Assembly: GCF_025452195.1 (NCBI RefSeq)
Contig: NZ_CP104973.1
Coordinates: 1,674,001 to 1,738,000 of the forward strand
From: Phyllobacterium zundukense
GTDB taxonomy: Bacteria > Pseudomonadota > Alphaproteobacteria > Rhizobiales > Rhizobiaceae
Direction of reading: 5' to 3'
Length of the DNA stretch: 64,000 nucleotides
Both the position numbers and the translations under genes were made by a program. This document shows positions 13,611 to 58,982 of the stretch, piece after piece. The first letter of the stretch is position 1. Each line of letters begins with the position of its first letter. A model generated the notes under the pieces. It had not been told where the DNA came from, did no database searches, and was given only the letters and a program-made list of their open reading frames with translations.

Positions 13611-13774
13611 TGGCGTTCTGCGCTTCTCGACAGGAGAGACATATTCCCCGGGGCCTTAATGATCCCTTAGGGAGCTGTCCCTGAGGAGGCCCGTGGGCTT
13701 CTTCACACGGCACCCACCTACTTTGTAGGTTCCCGGGATCGACTTCTCCATCGGTTGTGTGGACGCCGCTTTTA
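13611..13774 (+). ncRNA. ssrS: 6S RNA
   Basis: Predicted RNA of about 160 nt that would bind RNA polymerase holoenzyme by mimicking an open promoter. The 5' end (GGCGT near 13612) pairs with ACGCC near 13763, closing a long stem. Inside are the segment CACACGGCACCCACC and the strongly conserved-looking CTACTTTGTAGG hairpin that I associate with alphaproteobacterial 6S RNAs. Location also fits: 6S RNA genes lie directly upstream of the 5-formyltetrahydrofolate cyclo-ligase gene in many bacteria, as here. Ends are approximate. Identification is from recall of family sequence and synteny, not from a covariance search. Confidence 0.8.
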
Positions 13775-30469: not shown

Positions 30470-30598
30470 ACGAAAGTTGATCGGCGCAATCGCAACTTTT
30501 GCCCTATGTCAACATTACTGATCGCAGCCACGAACGAGTCGCTTCCATCGAGGCCGGGAGCGGAATTACCGTACATTGACAGGATATTGGTGAACGCT

Positions 30599-31795
30599 AT
30601 GACACAGAACCAGCTCAAACAGCGGGACACCCGTATCGACGTTTTCAGGGCTCTGGCTCTTCTCACGATCTTCATAAATCACATTCCGGGGACGGTTTTT
30701 GAGAACCTCACTCACAAGAATTTTGGATTTTCCGACTCCGCCGAGGCGTTCGTGTTGATCTCCGGTATCGCCGTCGGTCTCGCCTATGGTTCCAAGTTCG
30801 AATCGGGCAGTCGTCTTCTGATAACGCTCAAGGCGTGGCGGCGGGCTGCAACTCTCTACTGCGCTCACATCCTCACGACGATCGCTACGTTGGCGATTTT
30901 CTGTGCCGCAGGCATTTATCTGAAACGCCCCGACTTCATGTCGTTCATCAACATAGGTCCGCTGATGGATCAGCCGGCAAAGGCACTCATCGGCATTGCG
31001 ACGATGGGCCATCAGATTGGCTACAACAATATCCTGTCGATGTATGGCGTACTGTTGCTCATGCTCCCGATATTCCTGCTGATCGCGAGAATCAGTATTT
31101 CTGGCATGGTCGTGCTCTCAGGCATGCTGTGGCTGGTTTCTGGCGTGTACCAAATCGCTCCGCCAAACTATCCGACCAATGGTGTGTGGTTTCTCAATCC
31201 GCTGTCGTGGCAGTTCCTGTTCGTTATCGGGATAGCAGGAATCATGCATGTGCGCCGAGGCGGCACCATTGGATTCAACAAGTATTTGTTTGGGCTTTCG
31301 GCGGCCTATATCCTGATCGCACTAGTCTGGGTGCGTTGGCCATTATGGGGTGTGGATACGTCATTGGGCCTGCCGACGGTCATCACGGGCTTCGACAAGA
31401 CATTTCTGTCGTTGACGCGATTGGCCCATGTCCTATCACTCGCCTATGTGGTTGTGTCCGTGCCGGCGATCTCCAATCTGGCCCGTCGCGCCCCAGATCA
31501 TCCGCTGGCCATCCTAGGCAAACATTCGCTGCCGGTTTTTGTTGCCGGTACGATGCTCGCCATGGTGGCACAGGTCGTCAAGGTCCTGAATCCCGGTGGT
31601 TTGCTCGACGACACGCTCCTGATCGCAAGCGGGATCATGGCGCAATTTGCTTTGGCCTATTACCTCGAATGGCTGCCGCGTATAGGTTGGGGCGGACGCC
31701 CGGTACAAAAGCCGGTCAAGCCTCAAATTGCAGTTGCCAGCAAGTTGAGGAACGGGACAATGAAGCCGGCGACGAGCCCAGTGGCCTCGCGATAA
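30599..31795 (+). CDS. OpgC-like membrane acyltransferase
   Basis: Inner-membrane protein of about 398 aa with ten or so helices. The opening RDTRIDVFRALALLTIFINHIPG matches OpgC/acyltransferase-3 proteins, with the H in INHIPG and the FSDSAEAFVLISGIAVGLAYG segment. OpgC adds succinyl groups to periplasmic glucans (OPGs/cyclic glucans) in proteobacteria; that role is inferred. The ATG used keeps the conserved N terminus; an upstream ATG adds 31 unconserved residues. No opgG/H genes are adjacent. Confidence 0.85.
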   Translation: MTQNQLKQRDTRIDVFRALALLTIFINHIPGTVFENLTHKNFGFSDSAEAFVLISGIAVGLAYGSKFESGSRLLITLKAWRRAATLYCAHILTTIATLAIFCAAGIYLKRPDFMSFINIGPLMDQPAKALIGIATMGHQIGYNNILSMYGVLLLMLPIFLLIARISISGMVVLSGMLWLVSGVYQIAPPNYPTNGVWFLNPLSWQFLFVIGIAGIMHVRRGGTIGFNKYLFGLSAAYILIALVWVRWPLWGVDTSLGLPTVITGFDKTFLSLTRLAHVLSLAYVVVSVPAISNLARRAPDHPLAILGKHSLPVFVAGTMLAMVAQVVKVLNPGGLLDDTLLIASGIMAQFALAYYLEWLPRIGWGGRPVQKPVKPQIAVASKLRNGTMKPATSPVASR

Positions 31796-31815
31796 AATCA
31801 ACTTTCCTGTTGTCG

Positions 31816-31830
31816 TTAACCAGTCGTTAA
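31816..31830 (+). promoter_or_regulatory. CtrA-type box (TTAA-N7-TTAA) before the sRNA candidate
   Basis: Exact TTAA-N7-TTAA with spacer CCAGTCG. It covers about -38 to -24 relative to a predicted start near 31854, with TATAAA at 31842 as -10, the position expected for CtrA activation. Confidence 0.5.
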
Positions 31831-31853
31831 GCATTACAATCTATAAATTGATC

Positions 31854-31952
31854 ATCCAGTTTTCTGGATTCTTACCAAGTGGTTTGGCCACTTTGTTTGA
31901 CGCCTCCCTGTTAGACTCCTGAGAGCCGCCTCGTTTTTGCGGCTCTTTTTTT
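31854..31952 (+). ncRNA. Candidate small RNA, about 99 nt
   Basis: Predicted from structure and signals in the 351 bases between the OpgC-like gene and rcdA. A hairpin ATCCAG/CTGGAT with TTTT loop stands at the very 5' end, then a second hairpin AAGTGG/CCACTT (31877-31893), then an unpaired stretch with pyrimidine motifs CCTCCC (31903) and CTCCT (31916) able to pair with Shine-Dalgarno sequences, then a strong terminator. A CtrA-type box and a -10 lie just upstream. It could instead be the 3' UTR of the OpgC-like gene. Comparison with known rhizobial cell-cycle sRNAs such as EcpR1 would be worthwhile; I do not claim identity. Confidence 0.55.
31922..31952 (+). terminator. Rho-independent terminator of the sRNA candidate or the OpgC-like gene
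   Basis: Eight-pair stem AGAGCCGC/GCGGCTCT with a 9-base loop, followed by seven T residues. Confidence 0.85.
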
Positions 31953-31981: not shown

Positions 31982-31996
31982 TTAACCCTTTATTAA
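31982..31996 (+). promoter_or_regulatory. CtrA-type box (TTAA-N7-TTAA) upstream of rcdA
   Basis: Exact TTAA-N7-TTAA with spacer CCCTTTA, about 150 bases before the rcdA start. Another TTAA half site precedes it at 31970 with N8 spacing. Confidence 0.5.
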
Positions 31997-32146: not shown

Positions 32147-32680
32147 ATGATGACCGAACAGGAATTCCACGTAGACAACACGATAAGGCTTGCAGAGCAC
32201 ATGGTCCGCTCTGAGAGTTTCAATCATCTCTACGATGAAGGCATGAGTCTTGTGGAAGAAGCGGCTTTCTACCTTGATGGCGAAGGCCGCGAGGAGGCTA
32301 AACGCCTGTCGCGCATAGCGGCGACGCTTTATGCGGCTGAATCGATGCGGTTGACGACACGCCTGATGCAGGTGGCATCCTGGCTGCTTTTGCAGCGGGC
32401 ATCCCGTAGCGGTGAGATGACACTCGAACAGGTGCTTTCCGAAAAAGCCAAGGTTCGGCTTGATACCGACTCGGCGCCTGAAACAGTTGTTGGCTGGGAT
32501 GAAATTCCGCTACCCTATTGCGATATAGTGCATCGCTCGTTGCGCCTGCAGGCGCGCGTTCGCCAAATGGACGATGAAATTTACAATGATGGCGTTGGGG
32601 CCGAGCAAAAGCGGGTCTTCTCAACCAATCCTGTGTCCGATCAGATCAGTTTGTTGGCGACTGCATTCGGCCACCGCTAA
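32147..32680 (+). CDS. rcdA: DUF1465 protein, RcdA-type proteolytic adaptor
   Basis: Helical protein of 177 aa. DUF1465 is the family of Caulobacter RcdA, an adaptor that helps ClpXP degrade CtrA and other cell-cycle proteins. Seen: LAEHMVRSESFNHLYDEGMSLVEEAAFYLDG and the long helix AATLYAAESMRLTTRLMQVASWLL, both typical. The C terminus is disordered and polar, as in RcdA. Start choice is between two adjacent ATGs and a GTG 12 bases upstream; AGGTGA supports the first ATG. The CtrA-type box upstream would make this a feedback element. Confidence 0.82.
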   Translation: MMTEQEFHVDNTIRLAEHMVRSESFNHLYDEGMSLVEEAAFYLDGEGREEAKRLSRIAATLYAAESMRLTTRLMQVASWLLLQRASRSGEMTLEQVLSEKAKVRLDTDSAPETVVGWDEIPLPYCDIVHRSLRLQARVRQMDDEIYNDGVGAEQKRVFSTNPVSDQISLLATAFGHR

Positions 32681-38204: not shown

Positions 38205-39314
38205 ATGCGGGCTAGCGTCACATCCTCCGCAATTATCCACGCTGTGGTCATCGGCTGGGGGCTCCTGTCGTTCTCCTCGCCGACACCAATGGATATGGCG
38301 AATTCGGAGTCGATGCCGATTGATATCGTTTCAGATATAAGCCAATTGCAGAAGGGCGATAAAAAGGCACCCAAGGCCGAAAAGCCTGCACCCAAGCCCA
38401 CTCAAAAACCACAGGCAATTCCGGACGCTCAGAACGTTGGCGACAGTGAAGTCGACGCAGACACCAAACCTGCTCCAGAGACGAAACCAAAACCGATCGA
38501 AGCTGCACAGGCGCCGAGGCCTTCGGATGCCCCAGTCGCTAAGCCAGATCCGCTGCCGGAACCGAAGCCCGAAGTCAAGCCAGAGCCCAAACCGATCCCT
38601 GTACCGGCCACGGAGGTAAAGACCGAGCCCGCTCCGAAGGAAGAGGTAAAGCCGGATCCAGTGGCCGAGGCGATCAATGAGACCAAATCCGAGCCAGCGC
38701 CGAAGGAGGAAGCGAAGCCTACGCCGACACCTCCGGTAGACAAGCCCGCGGAAGAGGCATTCAAGCTGCCCGATACGGTCGCTAAGCCTGAGGCCAAACC
38801 CACGCCACCAGCACAGACAGCCAAGACGCCTGATCGCAAGGAAGTGCAGGAGAAGCCCAAACCGACGCAAACGGCGGCGACACCTTCCAAAGATAAAGAC
38901 GGTATCGCTGATCAAGTCGCAGAGCTTCTGAACAAACAGAAGCCGTCAGCTGGAGGCGCCAAGCGATCAAGCGATCAGGCCTCTCTTGGAGCGAACAAGG
39001 CTACGGGAGGTTCAAAGCTCAGCCAAAGCGAGATGGATGCCTTGAAGGGGCTCATTGAAGGAAATTGGAACAAGCCAGTGGGAGCTGAAGAGACCCCTGA
39101 AATGATCATCGTTGTGAAATTCAGGCTGACGCAGGATGGGGAAATCGACGGTCGGCCCGAGGTTAGCGGCAGCGGCGGTGACTCCGGATTATTGGATGCC
39201 GTAAAGAGCAGTGCCGTACGGGCGGTGATGAAGTCAGCGCCGTTTAACCTACCGCAAGATAAATACGACACCTGGTCGAGCGTTGAACTGACGTTCCATC
39301 CCGGTGCTACCTGA
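38205..39314 (+). CDS. tolA: TolA-like protein, proline/lysine-rich
   Basis: Inner-membrane anchored, periplasm-spanning link of 369 aa. A short N-terminal helix (about 5-25) is followed by a long extended region of Pro, Lys, Glu and Ala repeats (about 50-235, for example [19 protein letters not shown]). The globular C-terminal domain (about 260-369) has [19 protein letters not shown] and [12 protein letters not shown], the TolA/TonB-like fold. It should carry force from TolQR to Pal. The stop overlaps the first tolB ATG (TGATG). Confidence 0.93.
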
Positions 39315-40669
39315 TGTCGATTATAGGCCAGCCAAAAGAGGGCCCTGAACTAATGCTAAAAATACTCCGGACTTTATGTGCAGCTTTCGCGATGGTCATA
39401 GCAACTTTGATCGTGGCGACGCTACCTGCGAAAGCCCAGCTGAAACTCGATATCACCAAGGGTGTTGTCGAGCCTATGCCAATTGCCATCACGGATTTTC
39501 TTTCCGGCGATCAATTGGGTACGAATATTTCTAATGTGATTGCTGCGGATCTGGAGCGATCCGGACTGTTCGCACCTGTCGACAAAGGCGCTTTCATCGA
39601 GAAGATCTCGAATCCCGATGCGGCGCCCCGTTTTGAGGACTGGAAGGTTATCAATGCTCAGGCCCTTGTAACGGGTCGCGTTACCAAGCAAGGCGATGGC
39701 CGGCTGAAGGCGGAATTCCGCCTTTGGGATACATTCGCCGGGCAGCAGCTTGATGGCCAACAGTTCTTTACCTCACCCGAAAGCTGGCGCCGTGTCGCCC
39801 ATATTATTGCAGATGCAATCTATGAGAAGCTCACCGGCGAGAAAGGCTATTTCGATACACGCGTTGTCTTTGTCGATGAATCCGGCACCAAGGAAAAGCG
39901 CATCAAGCGCCTCGCGATCATGGATCAGGACGGCGCCAATGTCCGCTATCTGACCAATGGCAAGGATCTTGTCCTGACGCCGCGGTTTTCGCCAAGCCGT
40001 CAGGAAATCACTTACATGTCTTTCGAGGGCGGCAAGCCACAGATTTATCTTCTGCAGCTTGAAACGGGTCAGCGCGAGCTTGTCGGCAATTTCCCGGGCA
40101 TGACTATTGCGCCGCGCTTCTCACCAGACGGTCAGAAGGTCGTCATGAGCCTGTTGCAGGAAGATGGGAGCGCGAACGTCTACACGATGGATTTGCGCAG
40201 CCGGACAACGACGCGCCTCACGAGCACATCAGCTATCGACACCGGTGCATCCTATTCTCCCGATGGGAGCCAGGTTGTGTTCGAGTCGGATCGTGGCGGC
40301 CGTCCGCAGATTTACAAGATGGGTGCCGACGGCTCAAATCCGCAACGCATTTCCTTCGGAGATGGTTCTTACTCGACGCCGGTATGGTCTCCCCGCGGCG
40401 ATCTGATCGCCTTCACCAAACAATCTGGTGGCGAGTTTTCCATCGGCGTGATGAAGACCGATGGATCGGGCGAGCGAATCCTGACCAGCGGTTATCATGA
40501 CGAGGGTCCAACCTGGGCTCCGAACGGCCGTGTGCTGATGTTCTTCCGCCTGCCGCCCGGCTCCAACAGCCCCAAGCTGTCGACGGTCGATCTGACTGGT
40601 CGAAATCTGCGCCAGATCCAAACGCCAAACCTCGCGTCCGATCCTGCCTGGTCGCCGCTGCTTGAATGA
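39314..40669 (+). CDS. tolB: Tol-Pal system periplasmic protein TolB
   Basis: Periplasmic six-bladed beta-propeller protein of up to 451 aa. Signal peptide ([21 protein letters not shown]), N-terminal alpha/beta domain (about 45-180), then repeated WD-like TolB motifs such as [36 protein letters not shown] and [14 protein letters not shown]. Two starts are possible: the ATG overlapping the tolA stop, or an ATG 39 bases later (438 aa, typical signal peptide length). Confidence 0.95.
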
Positions 40670-40801: not shown

Positions 40802-40817
40802 TTAAGAGTGGATTAAC
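40802..40817 (+). promoter_or_regulatory. CtrA-type box (TTAA-N7-TTAAC) upstream of pal
   Basis: Exact match to the full CtrA consensus with spacer GAGTGGA, 82 bases before the pal start in the 229-base tolB-pal intergenic region. A further TTAA half site lies at 40790. Confidence 0.55.
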
Positions 40818-40898: not shown

Positions 40899-41402
40899 AT
40901 GCGCCGCTTCGAAATGATCGCCCGCAGTCCAGTTTTCGTTGCACTCTTCCTATCTCTCGCCATTGCGGGTTGTGCTTCGAAGAAAAATATGCCCAACAGT
41001 GCCGGTGATCTCGGTCTTGCCGGCAGCGCAAAACCTGGTTCCACTCAAGATTTCACAGTCAACGTTGGCGATCGTATCTTCTTCGACGTTGACTCTTCCG
41101 TCATTCGCGCTGATGCACAGCAGACTTTGGCCAAGCAGGCACAGTGGCTCCAGCGCTATCCAAACTATGCGATCACGGTCGAAGGTCATGCGGACGAACG
41201 CGGCACGCGTGAATACAATCTGGCCCTTGGCCAACGGCGTGCAGCTGCGACGCGCAACTACCTCGCATCGCAGGGTGTTCCTGCAGCACGTATCAAGACA
41301 CTTTCCTACGGTAACGAGCGTCCGGTCGCCGTTTGCGACAGCGAATCGTGCTGGTCGCAGAATCGTCGCGCCATCACAGTTCTTGGCGGCGCTGGCAGCT
41401 AA
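40899..41402 (+). CDS. pal: Peptidoglycan-associated lipoprotein Pal
   Basis: Outer-membrane lipoprotein of 167 aa. The lipobox IAGC places Cys25 as the lipidated residue. The OmpA-like C-terminal domain binds peptidoglycan: FDVDSSVIRADAQQTL, VEGHADERGTREYNLALGQRR and NRRAITVL are all present. It is the Omp16 equivalent of Brucella. The separate 229-base leader and the CtrA-type box argue for a promoter of its own in addition to read-through from tolB. A terminator follows. Confidence 0.97.
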   Translation: MRRFEMIARSPVFVALFLSLAIAGCASKKNMPNSAGDLGLAGSAKPGSTQDFTVNVGDRIFFDVDSSVIRADAQQTLAKQAQWLQRYPNYAITVEGHADERGTREYNLALGQRRAAATRNYLASQGVPAARIKTLSYGNERPVAVCDSESCWSQNRRAITVLGGAGS

Positions 41403-47616: not shown

Positions 47617-47632
47617 TTAAGCGAGATTTAAC
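47617..47632 (+). promoter_or_regulatory. CtrA-type box (TTAA-N7-TTAAC) upstream of the porin gene
   Basis: Exact match with spacer GCGAGAT, 81 bases before the outer-membrane protein start. A palindromic TTAACGTTAA lies nearby at 47585. Confidence 0.55.
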
Positions 47633-47712
47633 TTTTCCCCCTCATATTGGTTTCTAACACCTTAGTAGCATTCGCTGCACTCCAATCATTGGGCTTCGTG
47701 AGGGAAACGAAA

Positions 47713-48495
47713 ATGAGCACTTTCACTAAACATGCTGCCATGAGCGCAGCACTTCTGTGCCTGGGTGCTGTCCCGGCATATTCGGCCGACATACAGGATC
47801 CGCAGGTAGTGGAAGTCCAACAGTTCGGCGGATGGTACTTGCGCGGCGACATCGGCATGAGCAACCAGCAATTCGACGGGCTGGATTATGTAGGCTTCGC
47901 GGATCCTGCTGTTCACGGCTGGCACGATGAGGGAGATTTCGACGCCGGCATAACCGGTCAGATAGGTGTCGGATATCAGTTCAACGATTGGCTACGTGCG
48001 GATGTCACTGGCCAGTATCGTGGTAAGACCGAGTTTAGCGCCTTGGACTTTTATGACACGGACGGCATTCCGGACAATGGCGATGAGGCAACGAACGAAT
48101 ATCACGCGAAGAAGTCAGAATGGTTGTTTTTGGCCAACGCCTATACCGATCTTGGTACTTACGCCGGCCTCACACCTTACGTAGGTGCAGGTATCGGTGC
48201 ATCGCGAAACACAATTTCGAATTTTACCGATAACAATGCAATCACGGGCGGCGGTGGCTTTGCCGGTTCCGACTCCCAGTGGGAATTTGCATGGGCACTG
48301 CACGCCGGTGTGGGCATCAAGGCGACTGATCGCATGACCATCGATCTCGGTTACAGCTACCTGGATCTTGGAGACGGTCAGACAGCTAATGCATCCAACT
48401 TCATCCCCTCGCAAACGCGGCCCAACCCGGAACCGTTCAAATTCAAAGACATTACGTCGCATGACTTCAAGGTTGGTGTGCGCTACGCGTTCTGA
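47713..48495 (+). CDS. Omp25/Omp31-like outer-membrane beta-barrel protein
   Basis: Outer-membrane protein of 260 aa. A signal peptide ends in AYSA before DIQDPQ. The mature part alternates polar and aromatic residues as in an eight-stranded barrel (FGGWYLRGDIGM, GVGYQFNDWLRADVTGQYRG, WALHAGVGIKATDRMTIDLGYSYLDLGDG) and ends VGVRYAF with the C-terminal Phe needed for BAM insertion. It resembles the Brucella Omp25/Omp31 group. AGGGA is 7-8 bases before the ATG. A terminator follows. Confidence 0.88.
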   Translation: MSTFTKHAAMSAALLCLGAVPAYSADIQDPQVVEVQQFGGWYLRGDIGMSNQQFDGLDYVGFADPAVHGWHDEGDFDAGITGQIGVGYQFNDWLRADVTGQYRGKTEFSALDFYDTDGIPDNGDEATNEYHAKKSEWLFLANAYTDLGTYAGLTPYVGAGIGASRNTISNFTDNNAITGGGGFAGSDSQWEFAWALHAGVGIKATDRMTIDLGYSYLDLGDGQTANASNFIPSQTRPNPEPFKFKDITSHDFKVGVRYAF

Positions 48496-48641: not shown

Positions 48642-48647
48642 CCCGGA

Positions 48648-48697
48648 GTGGGCCACCTCTCCCCAACGAGAGGCGAGCTATCTGTAAGGATAGGAGA
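48648..48697 (+). ncRNA. serC-type cis-regulatory RNA leader
   Basis: The leader folds into hairpin CCTCTC/GAGAGG (48656-48673) and hairpin CTATC/GATAG (48679-48692), the second running into the AGGAG ribosome site of serC. Position at the extreme 5' end of a serC-serA transcript and the GGGCCACCTCTC...GAGAGGCGAGCTATC layout agree with the alphaproteobacterial serC RNA motif (described from comparative genomics), recognised from memory. It may control translation start of serC; the ligand or mechanism is not known to me. Confidence 0.7.
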
Positions 48698-48701
48698 AAA
48701 C

Positions 48702-58907: not shown

Positions 58908-58982
58908 GCGCCCATCGTCTAGCGGTCAGGACGGCGCCCTCTCACGGCGCAAACAGGGGTTCGATTCCCCTTGGGCGTACCA
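58908..58982 (+). tRNA. tRNA-Glu (anticodon CTC)
   Basis: Complete cloverleaf of 75 nt with encoded CCA: acceptor GCGCCCA/TGGGCGT (first pair G-U), D arm, anticodon stem GCGCC/GGCGC with loop CTCTCAC (anticodon CTC), T arm AGGGGTTCGATTCCCCT. It reads GAG codons. No duplicated 3' end (attachment site) is seen within the window. Confidence 0.96.

Follow-up and report, generated by a model that had tools for sequence, protein, structure and literature searches.

The gap between opgC (30566-31795; PF10129) and rcdA in Phyllobacterium zundukense carries a sequence resembling a binding site of the cell-cycle regulator CtrA, followed by about 99 nt with the anatomy of a small RNA (sRNA) gene. Is this RNA a gene in its own right, and does the CtrA-type box belong to the RNA or to rcdA? 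The locus was examined within the window, which is the whole stretch of DNA analyzed (64,000 nucleotides), and in related genomes.

Organization of the locus

The putative CtrA-type box of the sRNA promoter, TTAACCAGTCGTTAA, occupies positions 31816-31830 of the forward strand and is conserved in relatives. A -10 element, TATAAA, is found at 31842-31847 on the same strand. The predicted 5' end of the RNA is the 5' base of hairpin 1, position 31854, which places the box at -38 to -24. Direct reading confirmed both the exact TTAA-N7-TTAA at this distance and the TATAAA, as given in the original prediction, which had been made from the sequence of the window.

The sRNA extends over positions 31854-31952 of the forward strand. 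It begins with hairpin 1 (31854-31869) and hairpin 2 (31877-31893), both present in the computed fold. These are followed by a near-invariant core, GUUUGACGCCUCCCUGUUA (31895-31916), which is the predicted seed and here forms an 8-bp hairpin with the loop CCUCCC at 31903-31908. The anti-Shine-Dalgarno motif CTCCT (31916-31920, read directly) precedes an intrinsic terminator with its T run (31921-31952), in which the stem-loop spans 31921-31947 and seven T residues span 31946-31952. The two hairpins, CCTCCC, CTCCT and the strong terminator had all been described earlier within the same 99 nt and all are present; the third hairpin, of which CCUCCC is the loop, is an addition from the fold. The folding energy of 31854-31952 is -34.7 kcal/mol, compared to -19.3 +/- 2.8 kcal/mol for shuffled sequences (z of -5.5), and none of 200 shuffles folded as well.

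A second exact CtrA-type box, TTAACCCTTTATTAA, was found by pattern matching at 31982-31996 of the forward strand, between the sRNA terminator and rcdA. The rcdA coding region, with an inferred start, runs from 32147 to 32680 on the forward strand, about 195 nt beyond the terminator. It was identified by a match to the domain DUF1465 (PF07323), which we take to be the RcdA family. The ruvC gene also lies downstream of the sRNA. Phyllobacterium trifolii has the same box, and its OpgC, RcdA and RuvC matches are 96-99% identical. A generic sigma-70 promoter scan and a terminator scan listed neither the promoter nor the terminator of the sRNA. The promoter has no TTGACA-like -35 element, and the terminator loop in the fold is 9 nt long, exceeding the limit of 8 in the terminator scan. 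Elsewhere in the window, 6S RNA (13612-13768), a serC leader (48646-48698) and a tRNA (58908-58979) scored above their Rfam cut-offs.

RNA family and secondary structure

The RNA itself is already known. Positions 31807-31952 match the full model (1-140) of Rfam family RF02356, BjrC1505, with 75.3 bits against a cut-off of 50 (cmscan), and no other Rfam family exceeds its cut-off at the sRNA locus. The family is single-copy in the P. zundukense genome. A covariance search of the kind proposed with the original prediction was run on genomes of the order and gave RF02356 in 245 of 297 at an E value of 0.001, 212 of these being above the cut-off. At the same E value it was absent from 14 control genomes, Caulobacter vibrioides included. 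A sample of the class contained it in 20 of 190 genomes (10 above the cut-off), two of the 20 being from the order. Seventeen of the 18 matching genomes outside the order were taken as loci, G327 being left out; the match in G364 (L223) resembles a tRNA and is likely to be spurious.

The RF02356 model takes in 47 nt ahead of the predicted 5' end, treating the CtrA-type box and the -10 element as paired RNA. Many of the model's pairs in 31807-31853 are broken in this sequence, and the family boundary may need correction.

Two sets of loci were used for comparison. The first consists of the 118 listed exact matches to an 18-mer of the core, of which at least 118 exist; as these loci were chosen by the exact core, its conservation cannot be read from them. 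The second is a family-spread sample of 40 loci, taken from the stronger listed Rfam matches in 34 families other than that of the window and not selected for the core. All 40 contain the core UUUGA(C/U)GCCUCCCUGU. The sets overlap, with L065/L171, L087/L187 and L098/L193 probably being the same genomes.

In an alignment of 41 rows, consisting of the window and the 40 family-spread loci, the four helices show standard pairs in 96.9% of cells and two-sided changes in 9 of 23 pairs. This count, from which the outermost pair of hairpin 1 is omitted because it is split in that alignment, was not reached in any of 500 shuffles, and sliding the partners reduced the pairing to 37-55%. Two-sided changes occur in 2 of 5 pairs of hairpin 1 (which is not evident in L201), in 2 of 6 pairs of hairpin 2, where 100% of cells are paired, and in 5 of 8 pairs of the terminator. 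A 31-row alignment gave closely similar values: 97.0% of cells are paired, 10 of 24 pairs have two-sided changes (3 of 6 in hairpin 1), none of 500 shuffles reached the count, and slid partners paired in 36-53% of cells. This alignment omits seven loci with over-long ends (L174, L177, L180, L185, L198, L200 and L205) as well as L194, L201 and L202. It is also without P. trifolii (L042) and the Rhizobium-like loci L163 and L155, in which hairpin 2 could not be aligned. RNAalifold recovered hairpins 1 and 2 and the terminator from the 31 rows unaided, but not the small core helix. The core helix, predicted from the fold of the window RNA, has no two-sided change in either alignment, so the evidence from covariation concerns the other three helices. 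Conservation of the stems in relatives, on which the original prediction had been made to depend, is borne out, and the covariation supports the hairpins.

Two copies of the core RNA were seen in genome G670 (L237) and in genome G504 (L236 and L251). Those of G670 are in tandem, 200 nt apart, each with its own box, and an rcdA-like match of 34% identity is located downstream.

Conservation of the CtrA-type box

A box is present in the same short stretch upstream of the RNA in 112 of 116 testable loci (listed core matches plus the window). The sequence is TTAA-N7-TTAA in 49 of them, TTTA-N7-TTAA, a putative CtrA-binding variant, in 48, among which are Bradyrhizobium and Roseibium, and TTAA-N7-TTAG in 8; seven others have one-off or two-off forms, and four have no box (L005, L046, L106 and L109). 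The pattern TTWA-N7-TTAR fits 105 of these 116 loci, the expectation being 0.0008 per locus, as calculated from 2 matches in 42,120 bases of the adjoining upstream sequence. A wider and looser scan of the family-spread sample found the box in 37 of 40 loci, 16 of them exact and 21 looser; the three without it are L191, L200 and L202. When the sets are combined, TTWA-N7-KTAR is found in 148 of 155 loci among the matches listed, the others being L005, L046, L064, L106, L109, L197 and L200.

The position of the box is also locked. Hairpin 1 was recognized in 144 loci among the matches listed, and in 118 of them it begins 38-40 nt from the start of the box. The combined set also shows moderate conservation of a TAT-rich sequence resembling a -10 element, 26-32 nt past the start of the box. 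The comparison thus supports the earlier assignment of a CtrA-type box near -35 to the sRNA, since it is locked in position in relatives.

The exact TTAA-N7-TTAA occurs at 34 places in the 6,413,776-base genome, and the pattern read backwards occurs at 97. Two of the 34 are in the opgC-rcdA gap, 166 nt apart. The window contains four exact boxes, where 0.30 are expected and none of 100 shuffles reached four. A second exact box between the RNA and rcdA is present in 29 of 115 loci among the listed matches, mostly on the Rhizobiaceae side and with the window included. One further exact box, TTAAGAGTGGATTAA at 40802-40816, separates a TolB-like gene (39314-40669) from the gene of a Pal-like lipoprotein (40899-41402), and another, at 47617-47631, immediately precedes an outer-membrane beta-barrel-like gene (47647-48495); these gene names come from reading the translations.

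The probable Sinorhizobium meliloti counterpart

SmelC671/sm84 of S. meliloti was found by deep sequencing as a 100-nt RNA on the plus strand (PMC2873474). It had previously been placed between SMc03988 and SMc03989, both on the plus strand, and is listed as detected, with sizes of about 110 nt and about 80 nt, taken here as the expected and the detected size, and with a predicted sigma-70 promoter (PMC2573895). The family around SmelC671 was described across the Hyphomicrobiales in 2011 (PMC3927594). A review table that includes SmelC671 gives no promoter motif for it (PMC7143759).

S. meliloti CP090106 (L163) is labelled a plasmid but bears chromosomal genes. The gap between its DUF1192 and DUF1465 genes contains the exact box TTAACCGCAAATTAA, two hairpins recognizable by eye, CUCCCUGUU and a terminator, followed by a second box, TTAACCCTTTCTTAA. 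The DUF1192 and rcdA genes presumably correspond to SMc03988 and SMc03989. The window RNA most likely sits where S. meliloti carries SmelC671/sm84, judging by gene order, length and anatomy; the probable identification of SmelC671 rests on gene order, length and strand. The predicted length of about 99 nt agrees with the 100 nt of SmelC671. Should the T run be the 3' end of these 100 nt, the transcript of S. meliloti would start at the base that opens hairpin 1, which gives the box the same location, -38 to -24, that it has in the window. The RF02356 model scores 28.3 bits in Sinorhizobium sp. K101 and 31.7 bits in Shinella, and finds no match in the S. meliloti record at an E value of 0.1.

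The records of S. meliloti Ak57 'pSymB' (CP090106.1, L163), Shinella sp. (L164) and Sinorhizobium sp. (L165) are 3.5-4.6 Mb long, are filed as plasmids and carry rcdA; they look like mislabelled chromosomes.

Does the box belong to the RNA or to rcdA?

Proximity of the sRNA to rcdA, pointed out in the original prediction, is a constant feature of its relatives. Of the 118 listed matches, 110 are followed within 1 kb by rcdA in the same orientation, and the gene is directly downstream in 38 of 40 loci of the family-spread sample. Seven of the 118 listed loci have no rcdA match, and three of the seven had room for one (L027, L046 and L094). Matches to ruvC and opgC occur only on the Rhizobiaceae side of the listed loci, and the further neighbors differ. 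In one Bradyrhizobium metagenome-assembled genome (L047), rcdA is upstream of the sRNA on the opposite strand, the sole such case among the 118 listed matches; this could be a rearrangement or a misassembly.

Genomes outside the order separate the two elements. In a search of 385 genomes, a pattern consisting of the core plus a terminator was present in 24, including two members of the order, and a backward control gave no matches. The box pattern is found upstream of the RNA in 17 of the 22 genomes outside the order. Four of the remaining five have a one-letter variant discernible by eye (TTAG- or TTAT-N7-TTAA, TTAA-N7-TTTA). An rcdA match follows downstream in 10 of the 22, two of these being weak (27.6 and 28.8% identity). 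Eight of the 12 genomes in which rcdA was not found within about 1.5 kb downstream retain the box; in G482, which is among the 12, the downstream sequence is only 217 nt long, and four of the eight belong to one genus and have TTAATTGTAATTTAA in AT-rich sequence. The 18 loci outside the order that match the Rfam model, partly from the same genomes, comprise 13 with a box and 7 with an rcdA match; those without a box are L215, L221, L222, L224 and the tRNA-like L223. Since genomes in which no rcdA was located beside the RNA mostly retain the box, it looks like an element of the RNA itself, and in these sequences its presence appears to be tied to the RNA more closely than to rcdA.

A box that serves rcdA only, with the sRNA being a constitutive sigma-70 gene that shares the gap by chance, is accordingly an improbable arrangement. 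It has some precedent, since CtrA motifs upstream of rcdA were predicted in an earlier study of transcription start sites in S. meliloti (PMC3616915) and in a study of agrobacteria, where rcdA has several start sites (PMC10469942). Furthermore, comparative work has placed rcdA among the conserved targets of CtrA, and the promoter predicted for sm84 is of the sigma-70 type. However, the spacing between the box and the RNA start is locked, whereas the distance to rcdA varies, and most of the listed loci have the first box but no second. Because of the locked spacing and the retention of the box without rcdA, an exclusive role in the rcdA promoter was rejected as the main reading.

The position of rcdA directly downstream on the same strand would also suit an RNA that acts in cis as an attenuated leader of the gene. 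Some transcripts started at the CtrA-type promoter would then extend through the terminator, and the RNA structure would set rcdA expression. This explanation is likewise improbable, because outside the order the RNA and box occur in the eight genomes without a nearby rcdA, and three of the 118 listed loci lack an rcdA match despite having room. In addition, a covarying terminator and about 195 nt precede rcdA, a second box stands nearer to rcdA in the 29 of 115 listed loci mentioned above, and SmelC671, the probable counterpart in S. meliloti, is recorded as a discrete 100-nt species. The comparison with relatives hence favors the complete, stand-alone sRNA gene originally proposed.

Probable control by CtrA

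The RNA is likely to be a stand-alone, trans-acting sRNA of the BjrC1505 family, about 99 nt long and a probable counterpart of SmelC671, that is switched by CtrA and whose CCUCCC loop pairs with the ribosome-binding sites of its targets. The box at -38 to -24 would stand in for a -35 element, and CtrA bound there would switch transcription of the sRNA, most probably on. The level of the sRNA would then follow CtrA activity through the cell cycle. The transcript would end at its own terminator, and the CCUCCC loop would pair with the ribosome-binding sites of target mRNAs in an anti-Shine-Dalgarno mode. A CtrA-driven sRNA is, at the level of sequence, well supported by comparison.

ChIP-seq in S. 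meliloti detected CtrA in the rcdA promoter region, and rcdA was unchanged on CtrA depletion (PMC4433202). Binding without an effect on rcdA is expected if the target at this place is a terminated sRNA, and a CtrA-driven sRNA is a simple explanation for these data. The ChIP peak could equally be due to the second box before rcdA.

The CtrA-type promoter of the sRNA is new. No paper linking BjrC1505 or SmelC671 to CtrA, and no function of BjrC1505, was found in the open-access literature searched. The BjrC1505 family, which has been listed since about 2008-2012 without a function being found, would gain a specific and testable regulator. If CtrA drives the sRNA in most Hyphomicrobiales, post-transcriptional control would be a standard component of the cell-cycle circuit of CtrA in this order.

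Possible targets

The CCUCCC loop is complementary to Shine-Dalgarno sequences, which suggests pairing at ribosome-binding sites. Such pairing has been proposed for similar loops in other alphaproteobacterial sRNAs (PMC3927594). A core so nearly invariant may serve several targets or a general function.

The first candidate target examined was the neighboring gene. In S. meliloti, degradation of CtrA is promoted by RcdA (PMC4433202). An sRNA that acts in trans on the rcdA ribosome-binding site to repress the gene would create a double-negative loop, in which CtrA stabilizes itself, a circuit of the general kind suggested in the original prediction. This is possible, but we consider it doubtful. 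The predicted duplexes between the core and the rcdA start have a median of -16.4 in 108 loci among the matches listed, compared to -13.05 for 534 control genes, which were allowed their best start; the p value of 1e-13 is inflated because the loci are related. These 108 loci come from 119 rows (the listed matches plus the window), with 7 rows lacking an rcdA match, one with rcdA on the opposite strand and 3 without a start being omitted; some of the starts look mis-called (e.g. L049, L067 and L078). Many Bradyrhizobium-side loci have an rcdA site, GAGGCGUUAA, that pairs with UUGACGCCUC in a long match covering the ribosome-binding site, and GAGGCGT precedes the rcdA start in 24 of the 108 listed loci. 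Three of the four Rhizobium-like loci (L155, L157 and L158) and Shinella (L164) have a differing RNA core, and in these the rcdA site CAACAGGGA pairs with UCCCUGUU.

However, rcdA is the best of all genes in only 43 of the 108 listed loci, and the rcdA duplex of the window, -12.0, is like that of the controls. In the family-spread set GAGGCGT is present in only 2 of 38 loci and ACAGGG in 3 of 38, and the fit is poorer in the fourth Rhizobium-like locus (L156) and in S. meliloti (CCAGGGAA). A test against shuffled leaders in eight genomes, two of them with mis-called starts, gave no z below -1.9 for rcdA, and none reached -2. Complementarity to the rcdA start thus looks lineage-specific and is weak in the window.

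None of the leaders of gcrA, sciP, dnaA, a phasin gene and rcdA was consistent as a target across the eight genomes. The 38 of 40 leader duplexes that gave a value had z from -2.31 (one dnaA) to +1.53; several starts in this test were crude, and duplexfold allowed implausible bulges. The exact complement of an 11-mer of the core was also located in 10 genomes. Thirty of the 49 listed matches were read, eight of which were the sRNA gene itself. Some of the other 22 precede a possible start codon, as in the Bradyrhizobium-like L261, where the site is 3 nt before an ATG. One site is found in two genomes of one genus (L256 and L267) without a called start, and no site among the 30 read recurs across families.

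A broader scheme may be considered, in which the sRNA is an ancient output of the CtrA regulon that extends beyond the order and is independent of the link to rcdA, and has come to repress rcdA in the Hyphomicrobiales, so that CtrA protects itself from degradation. We regard it as speculative and rather unlikely. If true, it would also explain why the ChIP peak at rcdA leaves rcdA unchanged.

Comparison with known sRNAs

EcpR1 (SmelC291), named in the original prediction as a known cell-cycle sRNA of the class, is likewise a conserved, trans-acting, cell-cycle-linked sRNA, and both are Hyphomicrobiales sRNAs with cell-cycle neighbors. In S. meliloti, however, the EcpR1 gene is downstream of divK-pleD, and EcpR1 has the loop UCCGCCGCAUCU and a sigma-70 promoter under stress and stringent control. 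The window locus is flanked by opgC and rcdA instead, UCCGCCGCAUCU is absent from 31854-31952, and RF02356 alone is above its cut-off. A relation to EcpR1 is not supported; membership of the EcpR1 family was rejected on the grounds of the locus, the loop motif and the RF02356 match, and has next to no chance of being correct.

MmgR/suhB (RF00519) resembles the window RNA in having CCUCCCU followed by a GCCGC terminator. Membership of this family was rejected at 23.3 bits against a cut-off of 41.

CcnA of Caulobacter resembles the window RNA in its predicted regulation and presumed mode of action. Its promoter has a predicted CtrA site, it is putatively activated by CtrA, and its C-rich loop is thought to act at ribosome-binding sites. 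The CcnA gene, however, is at the replication origin, and its loop A motif is CCCC, which does not occur in 31854-31952.

Also among the closest known RNAs are those of RF02356 and SmelC671/sm84. BjrC1505 has the sequence, the hairpins and the terminator of the window RNA. SmelC671/sm84 shares with it the place before rcdA, the box spacing, the length of 100 nt, the order of hairpins as judged by eye and the terminator, and differs in its core, which is UUUUUCUCCCUGUUUUACC in SmelC671 and GUUUGACGCCUCCCUGUUA in the window RNA.
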